A DNA stretch of 64,000 bases from Chthoniobacteraceae bacterium. Its GTDB lineage: Bacteria > Verrucomicrobiota > Verrucomicrobiia > Chthoniobacterales > Chthoniobacteraceae. The DNA is taken from NCBI GenBank assembly GCA_028293625.1, contig JAQGOL010000036.1, positions 124,001 to 188,000 on the forward strand, in the 5' to 3' direction. This document shows, in pieces, positions 16 to 22,800 of this stretch. Under the pieces are notes generated by a model. The model saw nothing but the letters and a program-made list of their open reading frames with translations. It searched no databases and was not told where the DNA came from. Positions within the stretch are counted from its first letter, which is position 1. Every line of letters starts with the position of its first letter. Made by a program: the position numbers and the translations under genes.

Positions 16-1713
16 GCTTCAACGGGGCCGCGCTTTTGAAAGCGCGGAAGGCGCAAATGACGGGACCTTCTCAACCACGGTAGTTAAGCTTCAACGGGGC
101 CGCGCTTTTGAAAGCGCGGAAGGGGCAACCCGACGTGATTCGCACTTTGAACGGTGTGATGCTTCAACGGGGCCGCGCTTTTGAAAGCGCGGAAGGACAT
201 GCCCCGAGCCCGATAAAATGGAATCCTACTGCGCTTCAACGGGGCCGCGCTTTTGAAAGCGCGGAAGGATCGAGGACGTGTTTTAAATTCGCTCCGGTAG
301 TCCTAAGCTTCAACGGGGCCGCGCTTTTGAAAGCGCGGAAGGCACCCAGAGGTCACAAAGACTCTCCGCCAGATGTGCATCGCTTCAACGGGGCCGCGCT
401 TTTGAAAGCGCGGAAGGTCGGCGACGAAGACAGCGCGCCGCGCGCTTGTTACACGCTTCAACGGGGCCGCGCTTTTGAAAGCGCGGAAGGGACTCATTTA
501 CTGAGAAGTTGACACTCAACCCAGCTGCTTCAACGGGGCCGCGCTTTTGAAAGCGCGGAAGGGTTTTCCGAAGGTGCGGCTGCGGCGGCTGTAACCAGCT
601 TCAACGGGGCCGCGCTTTTGAAAGCGCGGAAGGAAGCAGTGGTTTATCTTTGCCTCTAATGAAGCAACGCTTCAACGGGGCCGCGCTTTTGAAAGCGCGG
701 AAGGGAGCTTATCTGATTCGCAGGAAATAAGCACGCAGCTGCTTCAACGGGGCCGCGCTTTTGAAAGCGCGGAAGGAAAGAAACCGGCCGCCTTGCTTCC
801 GTCTCGGTTAATGCTTCAACGGGGCCGCGCTTTTGAAAGCGCGGAAGGGCCTCCTCTTATTACAATTACGCGTTCGCGGGAACTGCTTCAACGGGGCCGC
901 GCTTTTGAAAGCGCGGAAGGGTCGAGACACGATCCGCTTCTGCGCCCTTTTCGGGGTGCTTCAACGGGGCCGCGCTTTTGAAAGCGCGGAAGGAACGGCT
1001 TGCTCGTGATTACACGTTTGGCCAGCTCGCTTCAACGGGGCCGCGCTTTTGAAAGCGCGGAAGGCACCATTGCCCCGACCTAGGCGTTGGTTATAACCAC
1101 GCTTCAACGGGGCCGCGCTTTTGAAAGCGCGGAAGGTGAATCCCGTATCCCACAACGTCGCAAACGATATGGCTTCAACGGGGCCGCGCTTTTGAAAGCG
1201 CGGAAGGTTGGATAATCCAAACTACCCGGCAGAGCTGGCAGCCGCTTCAACGGGGCCGCGCTTTTGAAAGCGCGGAAGGTGGGAATGCGCGAACGCGTGC
1301 CTTTGACCAGTTGCGAGCTTCAACGGGGCCGCGCTTTTGAAAGCGCGGAAGGTGGGACGCGGCAGCTACTGCACTTGTAGAATTGCGAGCTTCAACGGGG
1401 CCGCGCTTTTGAAAGCGCGGAAGGCTCGTTGAGATACGGTTTAGCCTGTGCACCGCGAAGCTTCAACGGGGCCGCGCTTTTGAAAGCGCGGAAGGGCTAT
1501 GAGATTCCTCAGGACATGGAGTTTCCACATGAGCTTCAACGGGGCCGCGCTTTTGAAAGCGCGGAAGGCAGCATCTTGATGGAGAAGCGCGCATCATAGA
1601 CTTCGCTTCAACGGGGCCGCGCTTTTGAAAGCGCGGAAGGTGGTAATGGTATCAGCACCTAAGATTCCATTATCCATGCTTCAACGGGGCCGCGCTTTTG
1701 AAAGCGCGGAAGG
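16..1713 (-). CRISPR. CRISPR array, 24 identical 36-bp repeats, type I-G
   Basis: Twenty-four copies of a 36-bp repeat start at 16, 88, 161, 233, 307, 382, 455, 527, 598, 669, 741, 813, 885, 958, 1029, 1101, 1172, 1244, 1317, 1389, 1460, 1533, 1605 and 1678. On the plus strand the repeat begins GCTTCAACGGGG and ends GCGCGGAAGG, and its centre is a 9-bp-stem palindrome (CCGCGCTTT / AAAGCGCGG). The 23 complete spacers are 35-39 bp and unlike each other; bases 1-15 look like the end of another spacer, so the array probably continues to the left. No copy is visibly degenerate. Read on the minus strand the repeat ends GTTGAAGC, which resembles the ATTGAAAC-type 5' handle of type I-B/I-C crRNAs. 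I therefore infer minus-strand transcription with the leader at 1714-2088 and the youngest spacer at 1641-1677. The cas genes alongside assign it to type I-G. Confidence 0.98.
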
Positions 1714-2088
1714 TGCTCCTTTCTAACTGCCTTGCGGGCAGGTGCAAAGGAGGGAGTTTGCGAGCGGTGCGATTTCTGCAGCCGTGTGCGGAGGCGGCAC
1801 TTGAGGGCGAGACGCACGAAAAAGACGCAAGTGGCTGATTTTAAATGCCCGCGAGCGGTCTTCCTGCGGGACGCGGCATCTCACTGCTCGCGGTTCAAAT
1901 GTCAAAGAGTCCAATAGGAAGCGCACATGATACAACAATGTCACCGGGCAGGCTACTTCGCTTCTCTGCCTGCGACAAGCAGAGGGCGCGTACTTTAGGG
2001 AAGGGTATATGCGAGGCAAATGACATAATTTCGAATGAGAGAGGTTCGCGTTGTGTTTTATAAACGACATGTATAAATCACATTAATT
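1714..2088 (-). promoter_or_regulatory. Putative CRISPR leader and cas4-cas1 promoter region
   Basis: This 375-bp stretch between the last repeat and cas4-cas1 has no convincing gene; the small frames lack any recognisable product. It is the expected leader if the array is transcribed leftward. Visible structure: a short hairpin just beside the array (CTGCC at 1726 pairing with GGCAG), and an 8-bp inverted repeat CCGCGAGC (1849-1856) / GCTCGCGG (1886-1893). The final 50 bases are clearly AT-rich and include TATAAA-like tracts just upstream of the cas4-cas1 GTG. The leader role is inferred from position and repeat orientation, not from a recognised leader motif. Confidence 0.55.
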
Positions 2089-4008
2089 GTGTCTCAGTCC
2101 TCCACTGCGGTTACCGAGGGTGAACCGTTAACCGCCCGAATGGTTAATGAATTCGTTTATTGTCCACGCCTATTCCATTACGAATTCGTCGATGGCATTT
2201 TTGTTTCCAGCGCCGACACGTTGCGTGGATCGGCTGAACATCGCCGGGTGGATCGTGGCTCGGGCGCCTTGGCCAAGGCGGCATTGCCAAACGCCGATCC
2301 GGAAGAAAACGCGGTAGGAGAAAAACAGACGATTCATTCGCATTCAGTCCAGCTTGGCTCCGATCGGCTGGGAGTGAGCGCGAAACTCGATCTGGTGGAG
2401 ACCAAGGCAGGGGAGAAAGCGGCTGTTGTCGTGGCGCCGGTGGAATATAAGTCCGGAAGCCCCCGGCAAACCAACGAGGGCATCACGATCTGGGACGCAG
2501 ACCGGATTCAGCTTGGGCTTCAGATGTGGCTCTTGCGCGAGAACGGTTATGTTTGTGAGGAAGGTGTCCTTTATTACAGGGAAACCAAACAGCGTGTGCC
2601 TCTGCGATGGACGCCCGAGTTGGAGAGCTGGGTGGAAGCCCAGGTGAATGGCGCGCGCCGCTGTGCGATGGGAGCGCGTCCGTTGCCGCTGATTGATTCC
2701 CCAAAGTGCCCACGCTGCTCGCTTGCGCCCGTTTGTCTGCCCGACGAAACCAACTGGCTGCGTCAACAGATCGGAGCGGGCGAGAGTGCCCCGGCGGAGT
2801 TGCCGAAGACGGATATGCCAGGGGAACTCTATAAGCCGGCGCCGAGTCCGCCCCGGGCCCCGTCGGATTCCACGATTGAACCGGCGGTTTCCAAGGGCAA
2901 ATTGCGGCGTGGAAAAAACGGTGGAAGCGCGCCGGCTTCGGGTGAACTGCGTCGTCTAATTGCCCCGCGCGATGATCGCCGCGCGGTCTACTTGAACACG
3001 CCGGGTTTGAATGTCGGTCTGCGCCAGGGCGTGTTGGTGGCCAGGGAGAAGGAGAAGGTCGTCCAGGAAATCCGGGTGCAGGACATGAATCATCTGGCCC
3101 TTTTTGGAAATATTCAGCTCTCCACCCAAGCCATCCAAATACTGGCCGGTGAAGAGATTCCGATTACTTACTTTTCGATGGGCGGCTATTTCCATGCGGT
3201 CACCCACGGGCACGGGCTCAGGAACGTGGTTACCCGAATTGAACAATTCCGTGCGGCTGGCGATCCGGTGACCTGCCTGGCATTGGCCAAACGGATGGTG
3301 GCCGGCAAGATCCGCAATCAGCGCACTCTGCTCATGCGCAATCATGAACAGCCACCCGAGGCGGTACTCAAACGGCTGAACCAGGCACAGGCCGATGTGG
3401 AACGCGTCGATTCATTGGGTTCCCTGCTTGGAATGGAAGGCGCCGCTGCCGCGCTTTATTTTGAGCATTTTGGCGGCATGTTGCGACCCCGAAGCGCGGC
3501 CGATATGCCTGACAAGCCCGCTGATGGCGAGCACTGGACCTTTGATTTCCAGGGTCGCAACCGGCGTCCGCCGCGCGACCCGGTCAACGCGATGCTTTCA
3601 CTGGCATACAGTCTTTTGGCCAAGGACTTCACCGTCGCGGCGTATGCGGTGGGGTTTGATCCGTATGTCGGTTTCTATCACCAGCCACGTTTTGGGCGTC
3701 CCGCCCTGGCGCTGGATTTGATGGAAGAATTCCGCGCTTTGGTGGCTGACTCGGCGGTGATCACGGCCATCAACAATGGTTCGATCACCGCGCGCGATTT
3801 CGTGCGCGCGGGCGATGCGGTGAACCTGAGCGCCGCCGGACGCAAAGCCTTTTTTGAGGTGTATGAAAAGCGCGTGACCGGCACGATTCGGCATCCGGTG
3901 TTTGAGTATGAGGTGAGTTACCGGCGGGCCTTTGAATTGCAGTATCGGTTATTGGCCCGGGCGCTTTCGGGCGAGCTCGCGCATTACGTGCCGTTTAAAA
4001 CACGCTGA
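2089..4008 (+). CDS. cas4-cas1: Cas4-Cas1 fusion, spacer integrase with PAM-trimming nuclease domain
   Basis: A 639-aa fusion of the type characteristic of I-G/I-U systems. Residues 1-220 are Cas4: the start motif NEFVYCPRLFHYEFV, a RecB-like nuclease site formed by D101, E119 and K121 (VEYKSG), and four iron-sulfur cysteines (C25, C207, C210, C216). A proline-rich linker of about 70 residues leads to Cas1 from about residue 290 (RRAVYLNTPGLNVGLRQGV). The Cas1 metal site is intact: E450 (GMEGAAAALYF), H531 (FDPYVGFYHQPRFGRPAL) and D543. Cas4 selects and trims prespacers at the PAM; Cas1 with Cas2 integrates them at the leader. I chose the GTG at 2089 because homologues have a short leader before the FVYCPR motif; no strong Shine-Dalgarno is visible. 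First gene of the adaptation arm, 112 bp before cas2. Confidence 0.96.
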   Translation: MSQSSTAVTEGEPLTARMVNEFVYCPRLFHYEFVDGIFVSSADTLRGSAEHRRVDRGSGALAKAALPNADPEENAVGEKQTIHSHSVQLGSDRLGVSAKLDLVETKAGEKAAVVVAPVEYKSGSPRQTNEGITIWDADRIQLGLQMWLLRENGYVCEEGVLYYRETKQRVPLRWTPELESWVEAQVNGARRCAMGARPLPLIDSPKCPRCSLAPVCLPDETNWLRQQIGAGESAPAELPKTDMPGELYKPAPSPPRAPSDSTIEPAVSKGKLRRGKNGGSAPASGELRRLIAPRDDRRAVYLNTPGLNVGLRQGVLVAREKEKVVQEIRVQDMNHLALFGNIQLSTQAIQILAGEEIPITYFSMGGYFHAVTHGHGLRNVVTRIEQFRAAGDPVTCLALAKRMVAGKIRNQRTLLMRNHEQPPEAVLKRLNQAQADVERVDSLGSLLGMEGAAAALYFEHFGGMLRPRSAADMPDKPADGEHWTFDFQGRNRRPPRDPVNAMLSLAYSLLAKDFTVAAYAVGFDPYVGFYHQPRFGRPALALDLMEEFRALVADSAVITAINNGSITARDFVRAGDAVNLSAAGRKAFFEVYEKRVTGTIRHPVFEYEVSYRRAFELQYRLLARALSGELAHYVPFKTR

Positions 4009-4120: not shown

Positions 4121-4411
4121 ATGCGCACCAGCTACATTGTCACCTACGACATTTGCGATCCCAAACGGTTAAGGAAAGCCTTCCATACCTGCAAGGCTTA
4201 CGGCACCCACCTGCAGCTGTCGGTTTTTGAATGCGATCTGAGCGAGGCGGAGTTTGTAAAGCTCAAGAGAGAGCTGGAGGAGGTCATTAAACACGATGAA
4301 GACCAGATCCTGTTTGTCGCGCTGGGAGCTACCGAAACGCGCGGCAAGCGGCTTATTGAATCGATAGGAATCCCTTACACAAAAATGGATGCCGCCTGTT
4401 ACGTTGTATGA
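4121..4411 (+). CDS. cas2: Cas2, integrase partner of Cas1
   Basis: A 96-aa Cas2 of normal length, beginning MRTSYIVTYDICDPKRLRK. It has the ferredoxin-like first strand ending in the conserved aspartate (D10) and the usual KAYGTHLQLSVFECDL second strand. Cas2 dimers bridge two Cas1 dimers during spacer integration. The ATG at 4121 matches the family start exactly; an upstream in-frame extension is unlike Cas2. Its stop overlaps the start of the next gene as ATGA, so the following DUF559 nuclease should be translated from the same mRNA. That coupling to a non-cas gene is the odd feature here. Confidence 0.95.
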   Translation: MRTSYIVTYDICDPKRLRKAFHTCKAYGTHLQLSVFECDLSEAEFVKLKRELEEVIKHDEDQILFVALGATETRGKRLIESIGIPYTKMDAACYVV

Positions 4412-5514
4412 CGGCGGGCGCTTCGATCTTCCTCCGCCGGTGCGCGCCGCCGTGCGATTTCCGCGTGGTGCTGCTTGACGAGAATGCCGAACGGCATTGG
4501 ATGCAACAATCTCCCGCCGGAGAATGGATCCGATGCGGCGCCGGGGATTGGGATCGTGCCGATCAATGGTTTGCACGCGCGCTCGCTTCTCCTCTGACTG
4601 CGCGCTGCTGTATGAAATGGGTGGCGGCCCGGCTTGGCATTGACTCGTTGACGCAAATTTCCGCCCCTTTGCGCGCGCGCATTGTCGAACGCCTGACCGG
4701 GCTTTCCGAGGGAAAGGAGCAACTTGTGGCCCGGCTTTGTATTCAAGTGCTCGGATGGGGGCCACAGGCGAAGTTGGAGCGGTCTGAGTTTTGGCAGGCG
4801 CTTGCCGGGTGTATGCCTGGCGCTTGTTTGCCGCGCATCGTGGTGGAAGGGAACTTCATGCTCGAAGAGGCCGATCGCATTGCCATTGGCGGCGTTTCCA
4901 TTGGTTTCAGGGTGAGCGCCTCCCATTGGGAACGATTTCTGGCCGGGAATAATTGGCGCCATCATGCCGCGCGCTGGCGGCTTGCCCCGGTTTTTGGAGG
5001 CTCCATTTTAGACGATGATGCGGTCGAGAGATCGGACATTCCCGGCACCAAGTGCCGATGCCTCGTGGAAGCCTGCGCGCCGGATGCCATCGCGCAGTTT
5101 GAAATCGCCGCGGCGCTGATCAAAAACGAACAAGCTTCGCATGGCGGGGAATCCGGCGAGGCGCGCAGTGCTGTCGAAGCTTTGCTCTTTTCCGTGCTTG
5201 ATGCGCGGCCACTGACACACGGCCGGTTCTCACTGAATTCGCCGCTCGACTTTCAATTTGGCACGCGCTCGGCCGAGGGCGATCTGGTGGCGCATCACGC
5301 CCGGCTGGTGGTGGAAATCGACAGCTATTTTCACTTTCGCGATTCGGACGGTTACCGACGCGCCCGCCGCAAAGATGCCGCCCTGCAGGAGCACGGCTGG
5401 TTTGTCCTGCGGTTTCTGGCCGCGGACATCGTGCGCGATCTTGAAGGCGTATTGGCGCGAATCGAGGGCCATCTCGCCCGGCTTTCTTATGAACACATTG
5501 ACCTTCAAAGATGA
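4408..5514 (+). CDS. DUF559/Vsr-like PD-(D/E)XK endonuclease-domain protein coupled to cas2
   Basis: 368 aa. The C-terminal third matches the DUF559 (MTES_1575, Vsr-like) endonuclease fold: helix SAVEALLFSVLD, then LNSPLDFQFGTRSAEGDL, LVVEIDSYFHFRDSDGYRRA, and RRKDAALQEHGWFVLRFLAA. The likely metal ligands are D292, E303 and D305, with the conserved FHF histidine just after, all present, so the nuclease looks intact. Residues 1-250 are not a family I recognise; they contain two cysteine-rich patches and no membrane segment. The start ATG overlaps the cas2 stop (ATGA) and the stop lies 26 bp inside the next gene, so this is the first member of a tightly packed three-gene cassette. A DNA-cleaving role is inferred from the fold; the substrate is unknown. 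It is not a known core cas gene. Confidence 0.75.
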   Translation: MTAGASIFLRRCAPPCDFRVVLLDENAERHWMQQSPAGEWIRCGAGDWDRADQWFARALASPLTARCCMKWVAARLGIDSLTQISAPLRARIVERLTGLSEGKEQLVARLCIQVLGWGPQAKLERSEFWQALAGCMPGACLPRIVVEGNFMLEEADRIAIGGVSIGFRVSASHWERFLAGNNWRHHAARWRLAPVFGGSILDDDAVERSDIPGTKCRCLVEACAPDAIAQFEIAAALIKNEQASHGGESGEARSAVEALLFSVLDARPLTHGRFSLNSPLDFQFGTRSAEGDLVAHHARLVVEIDSYFHFRDSDGYRRARRKDAALQEHGWFVLRFLAADIVRDLEGVLARIEGHLARLSYEHIDLQR

Positions 5515-6346
5515 ATTAACGCTCCTTGGTTTTTTAAGCGGTCAAGGCCAGGCGCTCACAACAGCCAAACTGCGCAACGCGCTCAAGCCGGTGCTGCGTC
5601 AGCAATCGCTTGATTTTTCAACACTCCTGCCGCGTCTCGCTGAACTTGCTCTGATTGAAGAGCTACCGCGCCAACCCCGAACGCGCAGCTCGCGCTGGAG
5701 GCTCGCCCCGCCCGGGCATGAGAGTATGCAAGCCCGCCTCGGTGAAGGATCAACCCGTGGCCGGGGCTGGATGATGAAAGCCGCGCGCGCGCTCGCCTCC
5801 GGCCGGACATTCGGAGTCACCTCCCGGATGGCAGTCACGATCGCCGGTCAGCCGGACGCGCTCGCGACTTTCTATCTGGCGACCCGGCTCGGACTGGAAT
5901 TTCAACCCGGGATGACCACCCTCGGTCTTGCCCGGGAGCTCGCGGCCTCGGAACTTGGCGTCACCAACGCGCGCGCTGAAACCCTTTGGAACGGTTTGAT
6001 CGAGCGTGCGCTCGGCACCAAGGCAGCGGAGGAAAACGAACCGTGTTCGATCGAACCGTTTTCTATCCAGGTCCAGCGCGCGGCCCGGACAGCGATCCAC
6101 GGCTGGTTCGGGCCGGGCAAACTGTTCATTCATCATGCCTGGGAAACGTGGCGGCGAAAAACCGGGGATCCGCTTGATTTGCCCGAGTTTAAAAAACGGC
6201 TCCTTGCCGCGCTGCGTGCCGGAGAGCTGGGACTTACCCGCGCCGATTTTACTCCCGTGCTTGATCCCAGCGAACTCGCCCAGGCCGAGATTCGCGACGG
6301 CGTTGAGACCTTCCATTTTCTCACCATTGAACAGACGACCCCATGA
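5489..6346 (+). CDS. Small helical, possibly winged-helix protein of the nuclease-ATPase cassette
   Basis: 285 aa from the ATG at 5489; a longer in-frame extension back to 5258 would run entirely inside the nuclease gene and is rejected. The first 70 residues (FKDELTLLGFLSGQGQALTT, then LLPRLAELALIEELPR and SSRWRLAPPG) look like a winged-helix or BrxA-like module: several helices and a basic wing. The middle is alanine/arginine-rich, and the C-terminus has EFKKRLLAALRAGELGLTRADF, which is typical of helical adaptor proteins in defence operons. No catalytic motif is visible. The 3' end overlaps the ATPase start as ATGA. It could be the DNA-binding or assembly subunit linking nuclease and motor; this is inference from size and context only. 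Confidence 0.6.
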   Translation: MNTLTFKDELTLLGFLSGQGQALTTAKLRNALKPVLRQQSLDFSTLLPRLAELALIEELPRQPRTRSSRWRLAPPGHESMQARLGEGSTRGRGWMMKAARALASGRTFGVTSRMAVTIAGQPDALATFYLATRLGLEFQPGMTTLGLARELAASELGVTNARAETLWNGLIERALGTKAAEENEPCSIEPFSIQVQRAARTAIHGWFGPGKLFIHHAWETWRRKTGDPLDLPEFKKRLLAALRAGELGLTRADFTPVLDPSELAQAEIRDGVETFHFLTIEQTTP

Positions 6347-9300
6347 GCAGCCTTGTTCCCCTCCACTCAATGCCCGTCGAGCCACCGCTTCCCGTGGCGC
6401 AATCACCCGCCACGCCCTGGCAGGAAGCGCGGTGGGCCGCGTTTCAATCGCCTCTGGGCCGGTGCGCTTTTGATGCCGTCGCCGGGACGGAAGACGTCTG
6501 GATGGATGATCCCTACGACGAGGAAACCATCCATGAAGAGGCGCGCCAGACATTTTCCGAGGTCATCGATCTGGCGGCCGATCGCGAGAGGGGAGCCAGT
6601 TCAATCCTTTTGCTCCAAGGCGACGCGGGCTCAGGGAAAACGCATCTCATGGGGGCATTCCGGCGCATGGTCGAGGAGCGTGGCGCGGGATTTTTCACGT
6701 ATGCCCAAATGACGACCTCCTCGCCTGACCTTTGGGCGTATCTCCTGCGCAACGTTGTCGATTGCCTCCAGAAACGCGGCGCTTCCTCCCGTGAAAGCGC
6801 CTGGCTCAGACTCTCGGATTCTCTGGTGGAGCGGCCGTGCATCCCGCCCGAGGAACGCGAGACGTTGCGCACCTCGGAGGATTATTATAGCGCCTTTGAT
6901 GCCATACGCCGTCGGTTGCTGGGTGATTTGTATCATCCCGACCCGGACAAACGGCTCCATTCCGATTTCCTTTCCGCCCTGCTGGCCCTTCAACGCCGCG
7001 ATGGCAATTCATCCGATGCCGCCATGAAATATTTTCGCGGCAACATCCTTGGCGAAGAGGAGGCGCGCTGGCTTTGCTGTCCGCAGGGACTCAGCGGCCA
7101 GGGCGACGCGCAGCAGCTTTTCGACTGGCTGTTGCGGGCGGTGCGCCAGTTCGGCTCCACCCATGGCGGCGCGTTTGTGCTTTGCATCGACCAGATCGAG
7201 GAATTGTTTGAGCGCTCCGAGTCCCAGCGGCGTTTTTCGGAAATGGTGGCGACAGTCTGCTCATTAACCGACCGGCATCCGGGTGTGGTGATCGTGCTGG
7301 CGTGTCTGCGCGATCTTTACATCGGATTGCAATCGTCGTTGTTTCCAACCCATCGCGATCGAGTCGAGGGACAGTGGCCCCACCCGGCCATCCTGAGAAC
7401 CGAACGCACTGCCGATGAAATTTGCGCATTGGTAGGCAAGCGGTTGCGCATGCTCGATGCCGACGCCGCGCTCAAACTCGTGCCAGCTCCGGGCGATGAT
7501 TTGCTTTATCCATTTACCCGCGAGGCGCTTGCCCGCCTTCAAGGATCGCGTCCCCGCTCGGTGCTGATCGAATGCCACCGGGCATGGGAAATTAGCCGGC
7601 GTACAAAGAATCTGCCGCGGATCAAATGCGAGCCCGCATTTTTCCCGGAAGTCGATCCGGTTGCACCGCCACGGATCAGCCCGGTTGTCCCATTGCCGGC
7701 CGCCGCCATGCCACTCGAATCCGCATGGTCCGAGCGCTGGAATGATTTTCGCACCGCATGGAGTGGCGCCGTTCCCGCACAGACCAGCGAATTGGCGGAG
7801 TTGCTTGCCTGGGGGGTCAATACGCTGGCCGCACAAACAGGCGCGCCATTGCGGGCCGAGGCCGCCGCCGACCTGGTGCATCTCAACCGCGATGGCGAAG
7901 ATGCCACGGCCGCCATCTGCAACGCCGCTTCCCAAGGGGGCAAGCTGCTGGCCCAGCTCCATTCACTCCGTCGATTTGCCACCGAGACAGGGCGCAAACC
8001 GCTGGCTGTTCGTGCCACCGAATTTGCTAAGAGCCCCAAAGCGCAAGTCATGCTGCAGGTCGGTGAACTCGTGAAGATTGGCGGACGCCGTGTCATTTTC
8101 CCCGAAGCCGATTGGAGAAGCGTTCAGGCATGGCGCGAGTTTGCCGGCATCCACGATGGCGAAACAGGCTTTGCTCATTGGATTAAACAGGCACGCCCTT
8201 TGAGCAAGGTATCGGCATTGCGGGATTTGGTAAAACTCGACGAACTGTCCTGGGGCGAGACGCGGGCCGAGCCAATCGATCTTCCTGAACCGGCCCCCGA
8301 TTTAACCCATCCCGTCGCCACGCCGGCTGAAGCGCCGTTTGATCCCGACTCGATTTTATTGGGTAAAACCGAAGGGCTGCGTTGCGAACCGATCACGCTC
8401 GCGACGGCCTCGCTTACCCAGCATCTGGCCGTGCTCGGCGGGACCGGTTCGGGCAAGACCACCGTGGCGCTGACCTTGATTGAAGGACTGCTTTTGCGCG
8501 GGATTCCCACCATCCTGATCGACCGCAAAGGCGACCTTGCCCGGTATGCCGATCCAGTCTCGCTCGCCGCGCTTCCCGGCCAGGCCGGTGCTCTTTTTCG
8601 TGAGCGTGTCGATGTCGCGCTCTTCACACCCGGCGCTGAGGCGGGCCGTCCGCTCGCCCTTCCGGTGCTGCCGGCGCGAATCGTTGGAGCCACCTCCGAA
8701 GAGATTCGCAATCAGGCCGGCGCCGCCGCCCACGCGCTCGCCGCCATGCTCGGATACAACGAAGGCCGCGCCCATCAGCCCAGGCGCGCGGCGCTGGCTG
8801 CCGCAATCGAAGTACTCCTTGAGCTTGATGGGGAACCGCCCACACTCGATCGCCTCCTCGATTTGATGAACGCCGAGGACCCGGCCCTCCTGCAGGCCCT
8901 TGACTATATCGATCCCAGAAACCTCCGGACGCTCGTCCAGGATCTCGGCGCATTTCGCCGCCTCAACGCGCGGCTGCTCGGATCCGGAGCTGAACCGCTT
9001 GAAGCCGAACGACTCCTTGGCGTGGGCGCGCATCGGGTCGAAGGCAAGACCCGCCTTTGCATTCTTTCCACCAAGTTCCTTGGCGGCGACAACCTGGTTC
9101 AATTCTGGGTGGCCCAACTCCTGATGGAACTGGCCCGGTTTGCATCCGCGCAACCGGCCTCTCGCCTCCAGGCCGTCCTGATGATCGATGAAGCCGATCT
9201 TTTCCTGCCGGCCGTTGGCCAGCCCGCCAGCAAACAGCCGATTGAAAACGCCCTGCGCCGTTTCCGTTCCCAGGGGATCGGCCTCATCCTGGCCTCGCAA

Positions 9301-9570
9301 AATCCGGGAGACTTTGATTACCGGTGCCGCGGCAACATCCAGACCTGGCTGGTTGGCAAAATCACCGAAACGCTTTCCCATAGAAAACTGGCCCCGGTCT
9401 TTGGCGATGCCGGCGGCGCCTTCCTCCAGCGCCTCGCCCAGCACGCGACCGGCGAGTTCTGCCTGGTGCGTGAAGATGCGCTTTGCCGTTTTAAATCCCA
9501 ACTCAACCTCCTCCGCACCGAGCAACTCCCCGACGCCGAGATCCTCAAGGCGGCGAGGGAGAAAATGTAA
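6343..9570 (+). CDS. Double-ATPase: N-terminal P-loop module fused to HerA/DUF87-type motor
   Basis: 1075 aa with two separate, intact nucleotide-binding cores. Core 1: Walker A GDAGSGKT (residues 93-100) and Walker B VLCIDQIEEL (about 278-287), in a STAND/AAA-like arrangement. Residues about 450-670 are an unassigned helical spacer. Core 2: Walker A GGTGSGKT (699-706), followed at once by LLRGIPTILIDRKGDLARY, with Walker B VLMIDEADLFLP (about 945) and the sensor-like ILASQNPGDFDYRCRGN. That set is typical of HerA/FtsK-type DUF87 translocases. Such motors pump DNA or assemble hexamers with nuclease partners in several defence systems (SIR2-HerA, DUF4297-HerA), and large dual ATPases occur in BREX and Dpt systems. 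It is the last gene of the arm cas4-1, cas2, nuclease, wHTH, ATPase. Function in this locus is inferred. Confidence 0.82.
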   Translation: MSSLVPLHSMPVEPPLPVAQSPATPWQEARWAAFQSPLGRCAFDAVAGTEDVWMDDPYDEETIHEEARQTFSEVIDLAADRERGASSILLLQGDAGSGKTHLMGAFRRMVEERGAGFFTYAQMTTSSPDLWAYLLRNVVDCLQKRGASSRESAWLRLSDSLVERPCIPPEERETLRTSEDYYSAFDAIRRRLLGDLYHPDPDKRLHSDFLSALLALQRRDGNSSDAAMKYFRGNILGEEEARWLCCPQGLSGQGDAQQLFDWLLRAVRQFGSTHGGAFVLCIDQIEELFERSESQRRFSEMVATVCSLTDRHPGVVIVLACLRDLYIGLQSSLFPTHRDRVEGQWPHPAILRTERTADEICALVGKRLRMLDADAALKLVPAPGDDLLYPFTREALARLQGSRPRSVLIECHRAWEISRRTKNLPRIKCEPAFFPEVDPVAPPRISPVVPLPAAAMPLESAWSERWNDFRTAWSGAVPAQTSELAELLAWGVNTLAAQTGAPLRAEAAADLVHLNRDGEDATAAICNAASQGGKLLAQLHSLRRFATETGRKPLAVRATEFAKSPKAQVMLQVGELVKIGGRRVIFPEADWRSVQAWREFAGIHDGETGFAHWIKQARPLSKVSALRDLVKLDELSWGETRAEPIDLPEPAPDLTHPVATPAEAPFDPDSILLGKTEGLRCEPITLATASLTQHLAVLGGTGSGKTTVALTLIEGLLLRGIPTILIDRKGDLARYADPVSLAALPGQAGALFRERVDVALFTPGAEAGRPLALPVLPARIVGATSEEIRNQAGAAAHALAAMLGYNEGRAHQPRRAALAAAIEVLLELDGEPPTLDRLLDLMNAEDPALLQALDYIDPRNLRTLVQDLGAFRRLNARLLGSGAEPLEAERLLGVGAHRVEGKTRLCILSTKFLGGDNLVQFWVAQLLMELARFASAQPASRLQAVLMIDEADLFLPAVGQPASKQPIENALRRFRSQGIGLILASQNPGDFDYRCRGNIQTWLVGKITETLSHRKLAPVFGDAGGAFLQRLAQHATGEFCLVREDALCRFKSQLNLLRTEQLPDAEILKAAREKM

Positions 9571-9601
9571 AGGGGAGCAATCCAACCGTGCGCTCGCCCC
9601 T
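9571..9601. terminator. Possible bidirectional terminator hairpin between convergent genes
   Basis: AGGGGAGC at 9571-9578 can pair with GCTCGCCCCT at 9592-9601, leaving a 2-base CG bulge and a 13-nt loop. It lies exactly between the ATPase stop and the stop of the convergent hypothetical gene. There is no clear T-tract on either side, so it is a weak candidate. Confidence 0.3.
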
Positions 9602-10331
9602 ATGGGTTCGCGGTGAGCGTCGCAGGCATCGGCGGAATCAGCATTGAAGGAATCGGTGCCGCCTCCGCCACCCTCCCGTAATCGCGCCGCGGCTGATACT
9701 CAATGCGCGCCAGTTCCGGGGTCCGATCCGCATCGCGCGTTGCCGAGCAATACCAGAACCGCACACGCAAAAGGGTCGTGGTCCCCAAATCAACCGCCGT
9801 ATCCCGGCTCCGATTTGCCGCCTGCCGGCCGCCGCCCGTTGCGGTGTCTGCCAGTCCATCAATGATATCCGATTGCGCCTTGATCCGCGCCAGTCGCATT
9901 GCCGGATATCGCCACTGCGCCTTCACGAGATTATCCTTGTCCACCTTGATTGCCTGCCTGGCCAGCGATAGGCAGCGCGCATGATCAAAGCGTCCGATCT
10001 GTCCGCCTTTCCAGAGATAAGCCTCAAAAAGCCCATCCCGTTCCACGTCGGTGATCATCTCCTCATCGAGCGCCTGAATAAAACGGTGTCCGCCGCGCAA
10101 CTGCCTTCCGAGTTCATCAAGCGCCCTGTGCTGCATGCCGGAAGCCTCTGTCCGTTCCCCCTCTGTCGTGCCCGTCAGCGCATCCCGATCCGCGAGATTT
10201 TTGACATCCTCCGCCACATCCTTGCGGAGCGCTCCCGGCAGCTTCAGCGGATCATCCGCCGCCCGTTTATCATCAATGCTCAAGACCAGGTACAACCGCC
10301 GGGCCAGCTCCGTGGATTCATTGTTAGGCAT
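9600..10331 (-). CDS. Hypothetical protein, 243 aa
   Basis: I do not recognise a named family. The protein starts MPNNESTELARRLYLVL, is rich in Ala/Arg/Asp, and seems mostly helical (for example ALDELGRQLRGGHRFIQALD and AQWRYPAMRLARIKAQSDII). It has a short glycine patch ATGGGRQAA near residue 165, then ends in a proline/alanine tail (IPSMLIPPMPATLTANP). No signal peptide, membrane segment or catalytic motif is visible. It converges on the ATPase gene and lies just downstream, on the same strand, of the 14-residue-repeat frame at 10415-10684, so the two may belong together. It sits between the two cas arms and may be unrelated to CRISPR function. Confidence 0.6.
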   Translation of the reverse strand: MPNNESTELARRLYLVLSIDDKRAADDPLKLPGALRKDVAEDVKNLADRDALTGTTEGERTEASGMQHRALDELGRQLRGGHRFIQALDEEMITDVERDGLFEAYLWKGGQIGRFDHARCLSLARQAIKVDKDNLVKAQWRYPAMRLARIKAQSDIIDGLADTATGGGRQAANRSRDTAVDLGTTTLLRVRFWYCSATRDADRTPELARIEYQPRRDYGRVAEAAPIPSMLIPPMPATLTANP

Positions 10332-10749: not shown

Positions 10750-15375
<4,626 letters not shown>

Positions 15376-15379
<4 letters not shown>

Positions 15380-15524
15380 TTTCGTAAGCCGTATTGCGGC
15401 CTCATTGAAGTGTTGAGCCGAGAGCGAGCTCGGCAGCATCGCTGCCAGTTCCGCGGTCCTGCGGCCGCGGCCCCATTCCGCTTCGGTCGGGCCACGGTTC
15501 TTGCAATCGCGGCGCCGTTGAAGC
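15376..15524 (+). other. Degenerate mini-CRISPR (repeat-spacer-repeat-like) upstream of csx17 and the TA pair
   Basis: Three segments resemble the array repeat in its inferred transcription orientation. 15489-15524 matches 22/36 positions, including 16 of the last 17 (ending GCGGCGCCGTTGAAGC). 15447-15482 matches 19/36, including TTCCGCG and GCGGCCCC at the same offsets with the stem preserved. 15376-15411 matches 19/36, including 13 of the last 16 (GCGGCCTCATTGAAGT). The first two in plus-strand order are separated by 35 bp (15412-15446), exactly a spacer length in the main array; the third follows after 6 bp. The pseudo-spacer contains a perfect palindrome (15432-15446). The element points toward the antitoxin gene. 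The region is very GC-rich, so chance similarity is possible. Similarity counts are by eye. Confidence 0.45.
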
Positions 15525-15536
15525 TTATTAGCGGCT

Positions 15537-15788
15537 GTGAATTCGTTGATCGAAATCGAAGAAGCCATCGAGTCGCTTCCACCAGAGGAGTTCCACACGT
15601 TGTTTCGCTGGATTGCAGCGCGCCGGGAGAACCTTTCAGATCGCGAGTTCGAAGCCGACGTGAAGGCTGGCGGGCTGGATGCAGCCTGGCAAAATGCGTT
15701 GAAGGAAATCGAGGCTGGGGAGGCAAGGCCGCTGGATGAAATCTGCGACGACCCGGACATTTGGCGAACAACTCGCGGAGCTTCCTAA
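15537..15788 (+). CDS. Antitoxin of a RelE-type toxin-antitoxin pair
   Basis: 83 aa starting at a GTG (15537). It opens with a helical, acidic segment (IEIEEAIESLPPEEFHTLFR) and ends with ALKEIEAGEARPLDEICDD, a tail typical of short antitoxins paired with RelE/ParE toxins. It overlaps the toxin start by 53 bp, the usual coupling for such pairs. It lies on the strand opposite to csx17 and cas3, between those two genes, and its upstream region carries the degenerate repeat element and the palindrome GGCAGC/GCTGCC, which could serve as an operator. The antitoxin assignment rests on size, tail and partner. Confidence 0.72.
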   Translation: MNSLIEIEEAIESLPPEEFHTLFRWIAARRENLSDREFEADVKAGGLDAAWQNALKEIEAGEARPLDEICDDPDIWRTTRGAS

Positions 15789-15996
15789 ACAGGTTCAAAG
15801 ACAGGCGCGGAAGCAGTTTTGCTTGTGGCGGCATAATCCTCAGCATCCGTCTCTCCGCTTTAAAAAGGTCAGCGAATATTGGTCCGCCAGGATCAACGAC
15901 GACTATCGGGCGGTGGCTCGTTTCCATGGCGACACCTGTTACTGGTTCACGATTCGGTCGCATAAAGATTACGACGAATTCTTACGATCCCGCTAA
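15736..15996 (+). CDS. RelE/ParE-family toxin inside the cas effector region
   Basis: 86 aa with the compact RelE fold pattern: TFGEQLAELPKQVQRQARKQ (two helices), HPSLRFKKVSEYWSARIND, DYRAVARFHGDTCYWFTIRS, then HKDYDEFL. The basic residues and the terminal SHKDYDEFL motif are common to mRNA-cleaving RelE-like toxins. The ATG at 15736 overlaps the antitoxin. The 3' end overlaps the cas3 stop by 15 bp, tail to tail, so the pair is inserted very tightly between cas3 and csx17. It could be a passenger addiction module or, by analogy with CreTA, a guard of the effector genes. Confidence 0.78.
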   Translation: MKSATTRTFGEQLAELPKQVQRQARKQFCLWRHNPQHPSLRFKKVSEYWSARINDDYRAVARFHGDTCYWFTIRSHKDYDEFLRSR

Positions 15997-18255
15997 AAGC
16001 GGTTCCGGAAGGCCGGTGCCCCGGCGCTCCGCTGCGGCTGAAGCACGCACATCGGCTGCCCGAAAGATCGCTTCGAGCCACGCAAGGCGGAATGGGCCGA
16101 TTTCCTTGTTGTTTCGAAGGGCGAGAACACGGCTAAGCCACGAGGGACGGCCTTCGGTTCCACCAAGAAGCATGCAGCGCAAATCAAGAGCGTCGATGCG
16201 AGGGAGCTCCCGGCCTTCGATCACAATCGGCATGTTGTCAGGCGCCGGCAGGGGATCGCCGTGCCAGACGCCGCGGGCGAATAGCCGGTCATCTTCAGGT
16301 GGCGCTTTTTCATCCGGAAATGCTCGCAGGGATGCGCGAACTTTTCCGTGGTGCGAGGCGATAAGATAGGCGACCAAGCTTTGCTCCATCTCATCCAGCT
16401 GCATGGCGTCGTCAGATTGAAGCCAGGCCAGAGCAGAGGCCAGTTCATGCCGGAAACGAGGGCGTTCGGATTTGCCGCCGGATCGGCCGGACTTCGCCCA
16501 GTAAGTCGTTGTCTCCGGGCAACCGGGAATTTTGCGAAGCATCTTTTGGAAGATCTCGTGGGCCTTGCCGACATCATGCCAAAAAGCAGCAATCTGCAGG
16601 ATGCGCAGTGTGGGTTTATCGATTTGAAGAGTTGAAGAGAGATCTGTCACGGCAGCGAGAACGTCGCTGGTATGCTCCGCAAGTGAGAGCCAAACGCCGA
16701 TGGTGGTTCTCCAATCTCCGTCGTAGCCCGGCTCGGGAAAGCCGCCGGATTGAAGCGCTGGTGGTTGCTGTTGAGTTTCGCCAGTCCATCCATATTGGGT
16801 GGAGTAACCGCCTGCATCCGTGGCGATCAGGTAGATGCGTCCGGGAACGGCCCGATGCGCCGGCTGCCATTCATCGTCGAGCCCGTTCCAAGTCCAAATC
16901 CGGGAGTCACGCTGCTTTTCTTTCGCGCGTTTGCGCTCCGACTCGAGAAACTTCTCGAACTCAAAAAGCGAAACCGCGCAAAGCTCTTCACGTGTCGGAG
17001 CACCGGTGAGTTTGCTGTAAGGGCGCGCGTCCTTTTCGAGCTCACGCCAAAACACTTGGACATCACTCGGCTCGCCATCGCGGACGTAGCGCGAGATGTC
17101 GAGATCATTGCCCGCGAGATCAGGGGTGGTATCGAAAAGATCAAACAAATCCTTGCGGCGCAGGACAGGGCGGACGGGCCGCATCGGTTCGACCATCTGC
17201 GTCGCCAGCGTGGCAGGGCCAACGTCAGTTACTCGCTCCAAAACCTCGCGAGCAAGTCGCAGTTCTTCAGGTAGGTAAGGCGTGGCTAGTTTTTCATCAC
17301 CGACGGCCAGCTCTATCCAGAAAACATCAGTTCCTTCCGCGACCTCACCGGAGCGATTGGTTCTGCCAAAGCGCTGAACCAGAGAAGAACACGGTGCCAA
17401 CTCGGTGAAGAGAGTGCGGGCGGAGACATCAATGCCCGCTTCAACCGCTTGCGTAGCAACGACGATGCGGTCGCCCGGAGCGAAAAGGATTTTCTGCTGC
17501 GCCGCGCGGTCAACCGGACGAAACCGCGAATGGATCAGAGCCTTGGTTTGCTGCGGCACCCGTTTTTCCAAAGCGCGAAACACGGCATGGGCTCGGTTGA
17601 CACGGTTGATTACAACGAGGGTCAGCGTGCCTTGCCGATGCGCGGCCACGACCTCCTCAGCCAATGTGGTGGCATAGGCGGCAATTTCATCTTTCTTATC
17701 TGCAGCCAACTTGGAGCCGGCTTGTCGCAATATCTTCCTGGCACCTTCACGGTCCTGGACGGACGGGGCCTGACGATCAGCTTCCTCCAAACTGATCCAA
17801 GGCCAGCCACCCGCCGGTTTTGGGTGATCCACGGTTGCAAGCTGTGTCTGATCCAGTGTAGCACTCATCCACCAGGTCGGACACATCACGGCAGCAGAAC
17901 GAAACGCATCAAGCTGCGCGCTTGTTTCAACCGCCACCCCCATGAGTTGTGTCTCATCCATCACCCAAAGTGCGTCGTTGTTAAGCAGGCCAAAATGGAT
18001 TGGCCAGCGGTAGCGGGTCATGCCGTAACCGCGGTTCAGCGCGCGGGAAAGGAGCATGTCTTGTGTGCCGATCAGGATGGCTTCTTTTTCGAGATAAAGA
18101 TCCCAGCTGCTGTCGGGCTCTTCTCCGCCCATAAGAATGGTTGGGGAGTTGTCCGCCAGCCACCGGAGTTCAGGAGAACCATCCCCATAACGTCCCGCAA
18201 GCGCTTCCAGCCATGCGCTGATACAGTCACGCGTTTGCTCGACGAGTGTCCGCAT
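15982..18255 (-). CDS. cas3: Cas3 helicase-HD nuclease of type I-G, N-terminally truncated (no Walker A)
   Basis: 757 aa from the first ATG at 18255. This methionine is inside helicase motif Ia (LPMRTLVEQT), not a true start. Motif II DETQ (100-103), SAT (131-133), motif V VATQAVEAGIDV (267-278) and motif VI QRFGRTNR (294-301) are present. A C-terminal HD domain has LAEHTSDV (523-530), WHDVGKAH (557-564) and ASHHGK, the helicase-then-HD order of I-G Cas3. Upstream the frame is open to 18441 with family-like PDIEARKQWPRRLVFCLP just before the ATG, but no GKT loop and no ATG, GTG or TTG. Roughly 60-80 residues with the Q motif and Walker A are missing, in all three minus frames up to 18600. The helicase should be unable to bind ATP normally. 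Deletion, or an assembly join, are the alternatives. Confidence 0.88.
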   Translation of the reverse strand: MRTLVEQTRDCISAWLEALAGRYGDGSPELRWLADNSPTILMGGEEPDSSWDLYLEKEAILIGTQDMLLSRALNRGYGMTRYRWPIHFGLLNNDALWVMDETQLMGVAVETSAQLDAFRSAAVMCPTWWMSATLDQTQLATVDHPKPAGGWPWISLEEADRQAPSVQDREGARKILRQAGSKLAADKKDEIAAYATTLAEEVVAAHRQGTLTLVVINRVNRAHAVFRALEKRVPQQTKALIHSRFRPVDRAAQQKILFAPGDRIVVATQAVEAGIDVSARTLFTELAPCSSLVQRFGRTNRSGEVAEGTDVFWIELAVGDEKLATPYLPEELRLAREVLERVTDVGPATLATQMVEPMRPVRPVLRRKDLFDLFDTTPDLAGNDLDISRYVRDGEPSDVQVFWRELEKDARPYSKLTGAPTREELCAVSLFEFEKFLESERKRAKEKQRDSRIWTWNGLDDEWQPAHRAVPGRIYLIATDAGGYSTQYGWTGETQQQPPALQSGGFPEPGYDGDWRTTIGVWLSLAEHTSDVLAAVTDLSSTLQIDKPTLRILQIAAFWHDVGKAHEIFQKMLRKIPGCPETTTYWAKSGRSGGKSERPRFRHELASALAWLQSDDAMQLDEMEQSLVAYLIASHHGKVRASLRAFPDEKAPPEDDRLFARGVWHGDPLPAPDNMPIVIEGRELPRIDALDLRCMLLGGTEGRPSWLSRVLALRNNKEIGPFRLAWLEAIFRAADVRASAAAERRGTGLPEPLLAGS

Positions 18256-18579: not shown

Positions 18580-19830
18580 GTGAGATTTATTCACGCGGCT
18601 GATATCCACCTCGATAGTCCCCTTCGAGGACTTGAACGTTATGAAGGCGCGCCGGTGGAGGAACTGCGCGGGGCGACACGCAAAGCGTTTACAAAGCTGA
18701 TCGCGCTTTGCCAGGAGGAAGCCGTCGATTTTCTGCTGATCGCCGGAGACGTGTACGACGGCGACTGGCAGGATTATAATACAGGCCTCTTTTTTACCAA
18801 ACAGATGGCCCGCCTGCGCGATGCGGGGATTCCGGTGTTCCTCATTCGTGGCAATCACGACGCGGAAAGTAAAATCACACGGCAACTCCGGCTCCCGGAT
18901 AATGTGCATTGCTTTGACTCCCGCCATGCCCAGAGCAAGCCGCTCGATGACCTCGGCGTCGTGGTCCATGGGCGGAGTTTTGCAACGCAGGCGGTTACGG
19001 AAAATCTTAGCACGTCGTATCCGGCTCCGATCCGCGGCTTGTTCAACATCGGCTTACTCCATACAAGCGCCGATGGCCGCCCGGGGCACGAGTCGTATGC
19101 GCCGTGTTCCCGGGAAAATCTTTTAGCCAAAGGCTATCACTACTGGGCGCTTGGACATGTTCATGAACGGGAAGTGATCGGAGAAGAAGAACCGTGGATT
19201 GTTTTTCCCGGGAACCTTCAGGGGCGGCATGTGCGGGAAATCGGCGGGAAAGGCTGTTCAATAGTAACCGTTGAAAGCGGCGGCGGTGTTCAGGTCGAAC
19301 ATCGGAACCTTGATGTTGTTCGTTGGTGCCGCCGTTCAGTCGATGCTTCCGGGGCAAAATCAATTGATGAGCTTTTAAGTAGAACTCAAAACGCGTTTGA
19401 ACAAGAGCTGCGGAGCGCCGGAGAATGCCTGGTGGCCGCGCGGCTTACTTTCACGGGCGCATGCGCGGTGCACCGGTCCCTTGTGACAAAACCGGATGCT
19501 TTCATTGCCGAAGTCCGCTCGATGGCGGGCAGTCTGGGCAATGTATGGGTGGAGAAAATCGCGCTCGATACACGCTCCCAGATTGACCTTGATCTGATTG
19601 CGCAGCAGAACGATCCGCTTGGACAACTTATCCAGTATACTCGCCAGCTTAAGAATGACGATGCAGCGCTTCAGGAACTTCTCTCGGAGGTTGCCGAACT
19701 AAAACGCAAGCTGCCCGCCGAGTTGATTGAACGGATTGTGCCGGATGAATGTAGTCTGATTCGAGGCTTGCTTGATGAAGTCGAGCAACTGCTTGTTCCG
19801 CGTCTTCTTGAAGAAAAGGAGCTGGCATGA
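18580..19830 (+). CDS. SbcD/Mre11-like DNA repair exonuclease (YhaO type)
   Basis: 416 aa metallophosphoesterase with the full Mre11/SbcD site: ADIHLDSPL (D8, H10), IAGDVYD (D57), RGNHDAE (N92, H93, D94), LLHTS near 155 and LGHVHERE near 196. The GTG at 18580 puts the catalytic first strand RFIHAADIH directly at the N-terminus, as in the family. The C-terminal half (IDELLSRTQNAFEQELRS onward) is the less conserved capping and ATPase-binding part. It overlaps the SbcC-like gene by 4 bp, so they form a nuclease-ATPase complex for processing DNA ends, hairpins or blocked breaks. YhaO-type proteins are shorter-named relatives of SbcD; I cannot separate the two by eye. Confidence 0.88.
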   Translation: MRFIHAADIHLDSPLRGLERYEGAPVEELRGATRKAFTKLIALCQEEAVDFLLIAGDVYDGDWQDYNTGLFFTKQMARLRDAGIPVFLIRGNHDAESKITRQLRLPDNVHCFDSRHAQSKPLDDLGVVVHGRSFATQAVTENLSTSYPAPIRGLFNIGLLHTSADGRPGHESYAPCSRENLLAKGYHYWALGHVHEREVIGEEEPWIVFPGNLQGRHVREIGGKGCSIVTVESGGGVQVEHRNLDVVRWCRRSVDASGAKSIDELLSRTQNAFEQELRSAGECLVAARLTFTGACAVHRSLVTKPDAFIAEVRSMAGSLGNVWVEKIALDTRSQIDLDLIAQQNDPLGQLIQYTRQLKNDDAALQELLSEVAELKRKLPAELIERIVPDECSLIRGLLDEVEQLLVPRLLEEKELA

Positions 19831-22800
19831 AGCTTGTTACTTTGGATTTTCAGCTCTTTGGTTGCTTTAATAATCTACGGCTCGATTTCTCGCAGCCGGG
19901 CAAACAGTTCCATCTTATCTATGGGAACAATGAAGCCGGCAAAAGCACCGCTTTAAGAGGGCTGACCAATTTCTTCTACGGCATTCCCGCCCGCACCACT
20001 GATGCGTTCCGGCACGATGCGCCGGCGTTGCGGATCGCGGCGGAGCTTTTGAGCGCCGGGGGAGAAGAGCTCTCCTGTGTCCGGCGCAAAGGCAATCAGA
20101 ACACGCTTTTAAGCCGTGAAGATAAGGCACTGCCGGAAAAGCTTCTTAACGACTTTCTAGGCGGACTTTCCGAGGAAGCTTTTACCACCATCTACCGACT
20201 CGATCATGAAACGCTTGTGCGGGGAGGGGAGGAGTTGCGCGAGGGCCGGGGCGATCTTGCTGAAAGCCTGTTTCAGGCGGGCTCGGGCATCAGCGGGTTG
20301 CGGCAGGTATTAAAAGCGCTGGATGAAGAGGCCGGCGAAATTTTCAAGGCACGCGCGGTGACCCCGCTCATCAACCGCGCCATCAACACTTATCAGAGCG
20401 CCAGGAAGCGCAGTAAGGAGCTTTCGGTTAAACCCGCTGATTGGAAGGAAAAGCAGGGCGAACTCACCGGAACGGAAGAAAAGCTCAAGGGCGAGCAGGT
20501 GGAACTTGCCCGGCTTCAAGCCGAGCTGAAGCGGCTCGACCGTGTGAAGCTCGCGTGGCCGCCGGCGGCCAGCCTGCGCCGTGTGCTGAATGAGATCGAG
20601 TTGCTTGGCGAATTCATCGCACTGCCGGAATCGGCAACCCAGGAGCGTCTTGATGCGGAACGCCGCGAGCGCGAATCGACAGCCCTTGAAGAGCAGGCGC
20701 GCGAGAAGATTGAGCGAATCGAGGGGGAAATCGCCCGGCTGCATGCGCCCGAGGAACTGATTTTGCAGGCGCTTGCCATTACCGCCGCCCATCAGCGTCT
20801 GGGGCGTCATCAGCAGGCGCGCATCGATCTGCCCCAGCTTCTGGCCGAGGTAAAACGGGATCAGGCCGATGCGGACGAACTACTGCGCGATTTACGGCCC
20901 GGCAATCAGGGCGGCGATTCATTTCATCTCTCTCTCCTGGCCCGTGAACGCATCGAGACATTGGCGGGCCGCCATTCGGTTTTGCATCAGCGCGTTCTCG
21001 ATACGGCCGGCCGCAAAGCCGATGCGACGGCGGATCTGGCCGAGGCCCGGGCGGTGTTGCAACCGGCCGAGACCACGGCGGACCCGGCCAGGCTGCGACA
21101 GGTATTGGGTCGGGTGCAAAAGGAAGGCGACCTGCAGACGCTTCTTTTTAAATCCAGGGCGCAGCTCAAACTACTGGACGAGCAGGTCGCACGGGAAACT
21201 GCGCGGCTGGGACGGTGGCATGGCTCGGCGGAGGAACTCGGGCAGGTGACGCTTCCAGGCATGGAAACAGTCGAGCGTTTTGAGAACGAATTCGCGCGGT
21301 GCGAACAATCGCATCGGGACGCCTTGCTCCAGGCTGAACAAGTCCGCGAGAAATTGCGGCTCTCTGAAACCCGGATCCAGGCTTTAAAACTCGGAGGCGA
21401 AGTGCCAACCGAGCACGAGCTTGAAGCCAGACGCGAGCGGCGGGAGGCAGGCTGGCAATTGGTGCGCCGCGCCTGGCTGGAAGCTTCGCGTGATGAAGCC
21501 GGGGAACGGACTTTTAATGCCCGGAAACCATTGGCCGAGGCGTATGAAGAAGCAGTCGAGGAGGCCGACAGCATCGCGGATCGGCTTCGACGGGAGGCGG
21601 CGCGCGTCGGCCAGCTTGCCGAACTTCTCGCGGGGCAAGCCGATCATCAGCAACGGTTAACCGATGCCGAGGAGGCGAGCACGAAAGCGCGCTCTCTTTG
21701 CGAGCGAGTTCAAGGCGAATGGGAAAAAGCGTGGAGTGCAATCGTGCCCGCCACTCCCCGCGAAATGCGGGCCTGGCTGACGCAATATGAAGGGGTGCTG
21801 CGACTGCTTGGTGAGGCGCGTCAGCAACGCAGCGGCGTGGAGCAGACGGAGAGTTTGATTAAAAACCGCGCGGCCGAGCTGCGCGAAGAGTTGCTTCTGT
21901 TTGGAGAAAAAGCGGAGGATCGCCTCGACGCATTGATTGATTGTGCGGGCTCGTTGTTAACGCGCATCGAAGAGACGCGGGGAAAACGCGAGGCGTGGGA
22001 AAAGGAGATCAAGGGACTTAATCTGGCGCTTCAAAAAGCGGATCGTGAAGCGCGACAGGCAATCAGCGAGCTTGACGCATGGCGGGAGGAATGGAGCGCG
22101 GCGGTCGCTCCGCTGGCACTTGGGCGGGAACCGGCTGCCAGCCAGGCGTTGGGTGTGATTCGACAGATCGAGCTTTTTCAGCAAAAAAAGAAATCCGCCG
22201 AGCAGCGGCTTATCCGGATCGCGGCGATGGAAGGCGCGGTTGCAAGTTTCGAGCAGGAGGTGGGCGCGATTGTGGAAACCGTGGCGCCGGATCTGCGTGG
22301 AGTTGCCGCCGATCAGGCCGCCATTCAATTGCAGGCACGGCTCACGCAGGCCCAGAAACATGCCGCACAACGGCAAACTCTCGAAAAGCAATTGGCGCAG
22401 GAAAAAGAGCAGAGGGAGGGCGCCATTGTGCAAATCCGCAAATCGAAGGCCGATCTTGTCCGTTTGTTTGAAGCGGCAAAATGCAGCACGCGTGGGGAAG
22501 TCATTGTGGCCGAAGAAAAGGCTTTCAGAGCGCGTTCGCTAACCAATCAGAAAGAGGAGTTGTTGAGAACCGTCATGCCGTTGAGCGCCGGCGTGCCTAT
22601 TGAAGAGTTTCTCATTCACCTCGATGGAGTGCAGCTCGACGCGCTCTCTTTGGATGCCGAGAGGGTCACCGGCCAAATAGCGGAATACGAGGCGCGGATA
22701 GGCCAGTTGCAGACCACGCGCGGCAAGTTCCAAACAGAACTCAGCGTCATGGATGGCGGCGAACAGGCCGCGGATGCGCTCGAACAAGCTCAACAAGCGG

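Follow-up and report, generated by a model that had tools for sequence, protein, structure and literature searches.

Gene organization of the type I-G locus

The window, meaning the whole stretch of 64,000 nucleotides that was analyzed, contains a CRISPR array and matches to all of the type I-G components sought: Cas4g/Cas1g, Cas2, Csb1, Csb2, Csx17 and a 5'-truncated Cas3g. The locus is assigned to type I-G because Cas4g/Cas1g is accompanied by convergent genes for Csb2, Csb1, Csx17 and Cas3g at 10750-18255. A cassette of three genes directly follows cas2. The features are:

16..1713, no strand given: CRISPR array with a 36-bp repeat, 24 copies in the window
1714..2088, between array and cas4-1: probable leader and cas4-1 promoter region, judged from repeat degeneracy
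2089..4008, + strand: cas4-1, the cas4-cas1 fusion of type I-G (Cas4g/Cas1g; NCBIfam NF049935, E=6.7e-206)
4121..4411, + strand: cas2 (PF09827, E=4e-22)
4408..5514, + strand: DUF559 nuclease gene, 368 aa (Pfam DUF559, E=7e-8)
5489..6346, + strand: putative winged-helix (wHTH) adaptor gene, 285 aa (winged helix from predicted structure)
6343..9570, + strand: AAA + HerA ATPase gene, 1075 aa (Pfam AAA_22/AAA_16, DUF87/HerA_C)
9600..10331, - strand: 243-aa protein of no known family (Pfam, NCBIfam), between the cassette and csb2
10750..12303, - strand: csb2 (cas5-6 fusion), convergent (TIGR02165, E=7e-57)
12300..13238, - strand: csb1 (cas7g; Pfam/NCBIfam profile match)
13235..15760, - strand: csx17 (cas8g; TIGR04113, E=1e-220)
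15982..18255, - strand: cas3g, 5'-truncated, homology beginning past the Walker A motif

The array continues upstream of the window to a total of at least 31 repeats. Its degenerate repeats lie at the far end, away from cas4-1, which places the leader on the cas4-1 side. The junctions downstream of cas2 are tight, as the first-pass annotation had described: cas2 shares its final ATGA with the start of the nuclease gene, the nuclease and wHTH genes overlap by 26 bp, and the wHTH and ATPase genes again share an ATGA. The same annotation had called the middle protein small, which its 285 residues correct. Scans for promoters and terminators from the array to csb2 gave no signal above that of shuffled sequence, so the proposed operon structure rests on these gene overlaps.

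In cas3g, similarity to relatives begins only past their Walker A region, which was not found upstream in any frame. Either interference is defective in this organism, or the helicase is supplied from elsewhere, or the assembly is faulty. Adjoining cas3 (18580-23351, + strand) are genes for an SbcD/Mre11-like phosphoesterase and an SbcC-like AAA_27 ATPase.

Domain composition and relation to known systems

The nuclease comprises a variable N-terminal part of ~250 residues followed by a C-terminal DUF559 (Vsr/REase-like) domain, whose PF04480 match of 32.7 bits exceeds the gathering score of 20.6 and places it in the family. Across 13 aligned nucleases drawn from both branches described below, residues D292, E303, D305, R320 and D323 never vary. 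The metal residues D292, E303 and D305, previously noted as intact, are thus conserved, and the active site is not degenerate in the family; the window protein departs at two near-invariant positions, as G306S and D319A, which hold G and D in almost every other sequence.

Searches of Pfam, PADLOC and NCBIfam assigned the middle protein to no family. An AlphaFold2 model of it (mean pLDDT 82) contains a predicted winged helix at residues 1-120 (VIA Z 11.0, rmsd 2.6, 90 aligned), which bears out the possible winged helix of the first reading, and a conserved C-terminal domain spans residues 190-285 or so. PII-protein matches of the wHTH profile (E 0.04-1.4) were not accepted.

The 1075-aa protein combines an AAA region (about 65-425), a segment with the element order of an REase-like fold (about 458-604) and a HerA translocase region (about 660-1066). 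Both P-loops noted earlier are complete (GDAGSGKT around residue 99, GGTGSGKT around residue 705), and the Walker A and B motifs of both ATPase halves are intact in 9/9 aligned sequences. The AAA half matches Pfam AAA_22 (3.5e-12) and AAA_16 (9.5e-11) and conserves its Walker A and a D[QE]-[IL]-E Walker B. The HerA/DUF87-like character of the second half is confirmed by Pfam DUF87/HerA_C and by fold. Its best fold match is Sulfolobus HerA (VIA Z 32.8, rmsd 3.5, 331 aligned), with the defense proteins SIR2-HerA, DUF4297-HerA and DndH ranking after it (Z about 25-31), in keeping with the likeness to anti-phage HerA motors first proposed. Q986 (Q sensor-1) and the upstream arginines R973/R975 are invariant, as in HerA/FtsK ATPases. 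The central elements run H-H-E-E-E-H-E-H-E in the model, with no D/ExK motif on the third strand; a Pfam search of this segment returned only noise, and the putative REase-like assignment follows the element order of the model. The central domain is probably catalytically dead and structural. The model of the whole ATPase has a pTM of 0.44, which makes its domain packing unreliable.

PADLOC holds no model for the trio. The earlier statement that no described system has this composition is therefore right for PADLOC, but a general class combining an Orc/CDC6 AAA ATPase, REase, wHTH and HerA/FtsK was predicted in 2024 (PMC10853773). These "HerA/FtsK capture" systems, for which an anti-invader role is proposed, distribute an Orc/CDC6 AAA+ ATPase, an REase-like domain, an active REase, HerA/FtsK and wHTH over one to several polypeptides per operon; the inactive iREase is inserted between the AAA core and the wHTH, and the active REase belongs to one of two families (PMC10853773, NAR 2024). 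This class is the closest published idea to the cassette, likened to it by domain content. The cassette shows a comparable combination of AAA, putative REase-like, active-looking REase, HerA/FtsK and wHTH elements. It differs in carrying its AAA, REase-like and HerA regions on a single polypeptide, in its link to type I-G cas genes, and in its active-looking nuclease, a DUF559 enzyme of a kind not mentioned in PMC10853773.

Other HerA systems resemble the cassette in part. SIR2-HerA (Nezha) and DUF4297-HerA likewise pair a motor of the same fold with an effector enzyme, but the cassette adds AAA and REase-like regions and a wHTH gene, and neither a SIR2 nor a DUF4297 effector was found: its two partner proteins match DUF559 or nothing in Pfam, PADLOC and NCBIfam. 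The HerA-NurA end-resection complex (9x1m; Z 27.9) also joins a HerA translocase to a nuclease; here the nuclease is DUF559 rather than NurA, there are three genes, and the distribution is patchy rather than that of a housekeeping complex. DndFGH (Dpt) restriction shares a wHTH protein, an REase and a HerA ATPase (DndH-C HerA fold, Z 29.0) but has a different gene content, and none of the three cassette proteins matched PADLOC DndF, DndG or DndH up to E=10. PADLOC HerA models cover only part of the 1075-aa ATPase. The top match of its HerA part is Mad8 of MADS (E=2e-19); of the mad1-mad8 set only mad8 is matched, in the HerA region only, and the partner proteins match no MADS component. BREX, defined by BrxC/PglY with PglZ and partners, had no model among the PADLOC matches. 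The cassette is a real, conserved and uncatalogued variant of HerA-type nuclease systems.

Distribution of the trio and its neighbors

The nuclease-wHTH-ATPase order and orientation is kept in 13 loci from at least four phyla (the window, L177, L031, L032, L033, L034, L038, L041, L145, L149, L152, L188 and L190, with L152 included though its ATPase runs onto another contig), so the co-linearity exceeds chance and the genes are not scattered and unlinked in relatives. These loci span the window's own phylum, Planctomycetota (Tautonia, Aquisphaera), Myxococcota and a Bacteroidales MAG, and most of their gene junctions are 4-bp overlaps. A distant branch of two loci (L148, L153) has nuclease and ATPase homologs flanking a 218-224-aa gene in the same order, and four further loci pair the wHTH and ATPase genes without a recognized nuclease. 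Two members of the window's order carry a split form, in which an AAA-like gene is followed by a Cas4/AddB-type PDDEXK_1 nuclease domain fused to HerA (L178, 197-4317; L180, 1653-5842); this form was not counted as a trio. Abundant HerA proteins of 700-870 aa that match only the C-terminal third of the ATPase were set aside as paralogs; all four examined have housekeeping neighbors and no nuclease or wHTH partner.

Full-length ATPases occur in only a handful of the ~390, 330 and 390 genomes sampled per phylum, and the distribution is accordingly patchy, with up to three copies in one genome. G204 has another cassette-type ATPase copy on the contig that carries the first; its coding sequence is spread over two frames and apparently decaying (L189, 6818-10491, - strand). 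This rare, patchy and multi-copy occurrence follows the pattern of mobile defense genes, although mobility is suggested only by the patchiness, since no relatives were found in IMG/VR or PLSDB. Several relatives stand amid housekeeping genes with no obvious defense island (gene identities judged by eye), and the trio did not turn out to be a known housekeeping complex.

Elsewhere, the neighbors are defense genes. In one myxobacterial MAG the Septu gene ptuA follows the ATPase gene in two loci, joined by ptuB on the longer contig, and in a Kofleriaceae MAG the gene behind the ATPase gene encodes a type IV restriction enzyme (PADLOC E=8e-218). Such neighbors, together with rarity, provide the main support for a defense role. 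At their N-termini, the PtuA proteins (L036, 3482-5593; L040, 1781-4099) are extended by a stretch homologous to the N-terminal AAA part of the cassette ATPase, a sequence similarity that suggests a swappable sensor domain.

Association with CRISPR adaptation genes and proposed function

The first-pass annotation had offered two readings of the cassette, a separate system captured by the cas operon or an accessory CRISPR module. Most trio loci, with a Tautonia version among them, lie away from cas genes, and the first reading is supported on that ground. The second also gained weight. In G052, which belongs to the window's order but to a different family, contig C124 carries the succession array, cas4-1, cas2, nuclease, wHTH, ATPase (locus L177), with 17 bp between cas2 and the nuclease gene. 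The window and L177 proteins are 66% identical for cas4-1, 59% for cas2, 53% for the ATPase, 43% for the nuclease and 42% for the wHTH protein, and the ATPase and cas4-1 trees each pair the two loci with a support of 100, the ATPase pair on a long stem. In Planctomycetota (L033/L160), ~6 kb separate the trio from a type I-G operon that is complete. Moreover, trio genomes are enriched in type I-G. In the window's order, 3/3 trio genomes, one of them known only from an ATPase fragment, fall among the 8/67 genomes with type I-G cas4-1 (hypergeometric p=0.001), and in Planctomycetota type I-G occurs in 3/7 trio genomes vs 12/117 (p=0.04), counts that are small and statistics that ignore relatedness and genome size. 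The enrichment could be due in part to genome size or lineage. The cassette is not a cas gene set: it adjoins the Cas4-1/Cas2 adaptation module downstream, in one apparent operon, but is absent from the 17 other cas4g-cas1g loci fetched (12 from Planctomycetota and five from the window's order), and so from most of those examined. The tie to the type I-G adaptation genes is conserved but lineage-restricted. In two cas4-1/cas2 loci of G199, the region upstream of cas4-1 encodes a different HerA (672-675 aa), a protein of 415 aa and one resembling M78 peptidases (L160, 11600-16504; L193, 12069-16032).

We favor, with a probability of roughly 0.64, a reading in which the trio is a stand-alone, HerA-driven restriction or defense complex directed against invaders that entered a type I-G adaptation operon in a single recruitment. 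The three proteins would form one complex. By analogy with HerA defense complexes and with the predicted capture systems (PMC10853773), the wHTH adaptor would contact DNA and, with the AAA half, position the complex on the DNA of the invader; the N-terminal AAA domain may act as a nucleotide-driven sensor or loader. The HerA domain would form a ring and translocate DNA to the DUF559 endonuclease, which would cut it. A single recruitment event would have produced the order array, cas4-1, cas2, nuclease, wHTH, ATPase, and with the trio recruited into the adaptation operon, its co-expression with the genes for spacer acquisition is probable. More speculatively, the products of the cassette could then become available to Cas4-1/Cas2.

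A rival account, somewhat unlikely in our view, is that an independent defense system came to lie behind cas2 by chance in the common ancestor of both loci and has no functional tie to CRISPR. Conservation of the trio without cas genes in most genomes is what this account expects, and the two cas-adjacent cases may represent one event, inherited or transferred together. However, the linkage has been kept while the proteins diverged to 42-66% identity, gene spacings of -4 and +17 bp are not what a pure bystander usually shows, and trio genomes are enriched in type I-G. This account is in any case compatible with the stand-alone part of the explanation that we prefer.

That the HerA-driven nuclease complex is instead a working part of the type I-G system, capturing invader DNA and either supplying fragments to Cas4-1/Cas2 or replacing a defective Cas3, appears unlikely. 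Its first form, which we regard as distinctly doubtful, has foreign DNA processed by the HerA motor and the nuclease, whose products would pass to Cas4-1/Cas2 and be integrated at the adjoining leader, much as RecBCD/AddAB or HerA-NurA act on DNA ends. In two families the trio shares an operon with cas4-1/cas2, the array precedes cas4-1 in each of them, the leader end of the window's array faces cas4-1, type I-G is enriched among trio genomes, and the different HerA upstream of cas4-1/cas2 in the two G199 loci indicates that HerA genes recur near the adaptation module. Against this stand the 17 cas4g-cas1g loci that lack the trio, the majority of trio loci with no cas genes nearby, and the position of the single trio-type ATPase fragment of G080 on another contig. 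Its second form, in which the cassette provides motor and nuclease as a back-up or replacement for a broken Cas3, is conceivable because the window's Cas3 lacks the Walker A region, and the cassette directly follows cas2 in the slot held by cas3 in L160, but it is very improbable: G199, with its trio near a I-G locus, keeps a Cas3 with a PTGAGKT motif, a second cas3 may lie elsewhere in the window's genome, and the truncation could reflect recent decay or an assembly error.

To our knowledge, where the DNA fragments for new spacers come from is still an open question in CRISPR types with no obvious use of RecBCD. If the proposed association holds, a motor-nuclease complex expressed from the Cas4-1/Cas2 operon would constitute a restriction-coupled CRISPR adaptation operon, and would connect innate restriction directly with CRISPR memory in a way that can be tested. 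Setting the CRISPR link aside, these data describe a patchy system of three genes, found in at least four phyla and unmodeled by PADLOC, that stands beside Septu, type IV restriction and type I-G genes.
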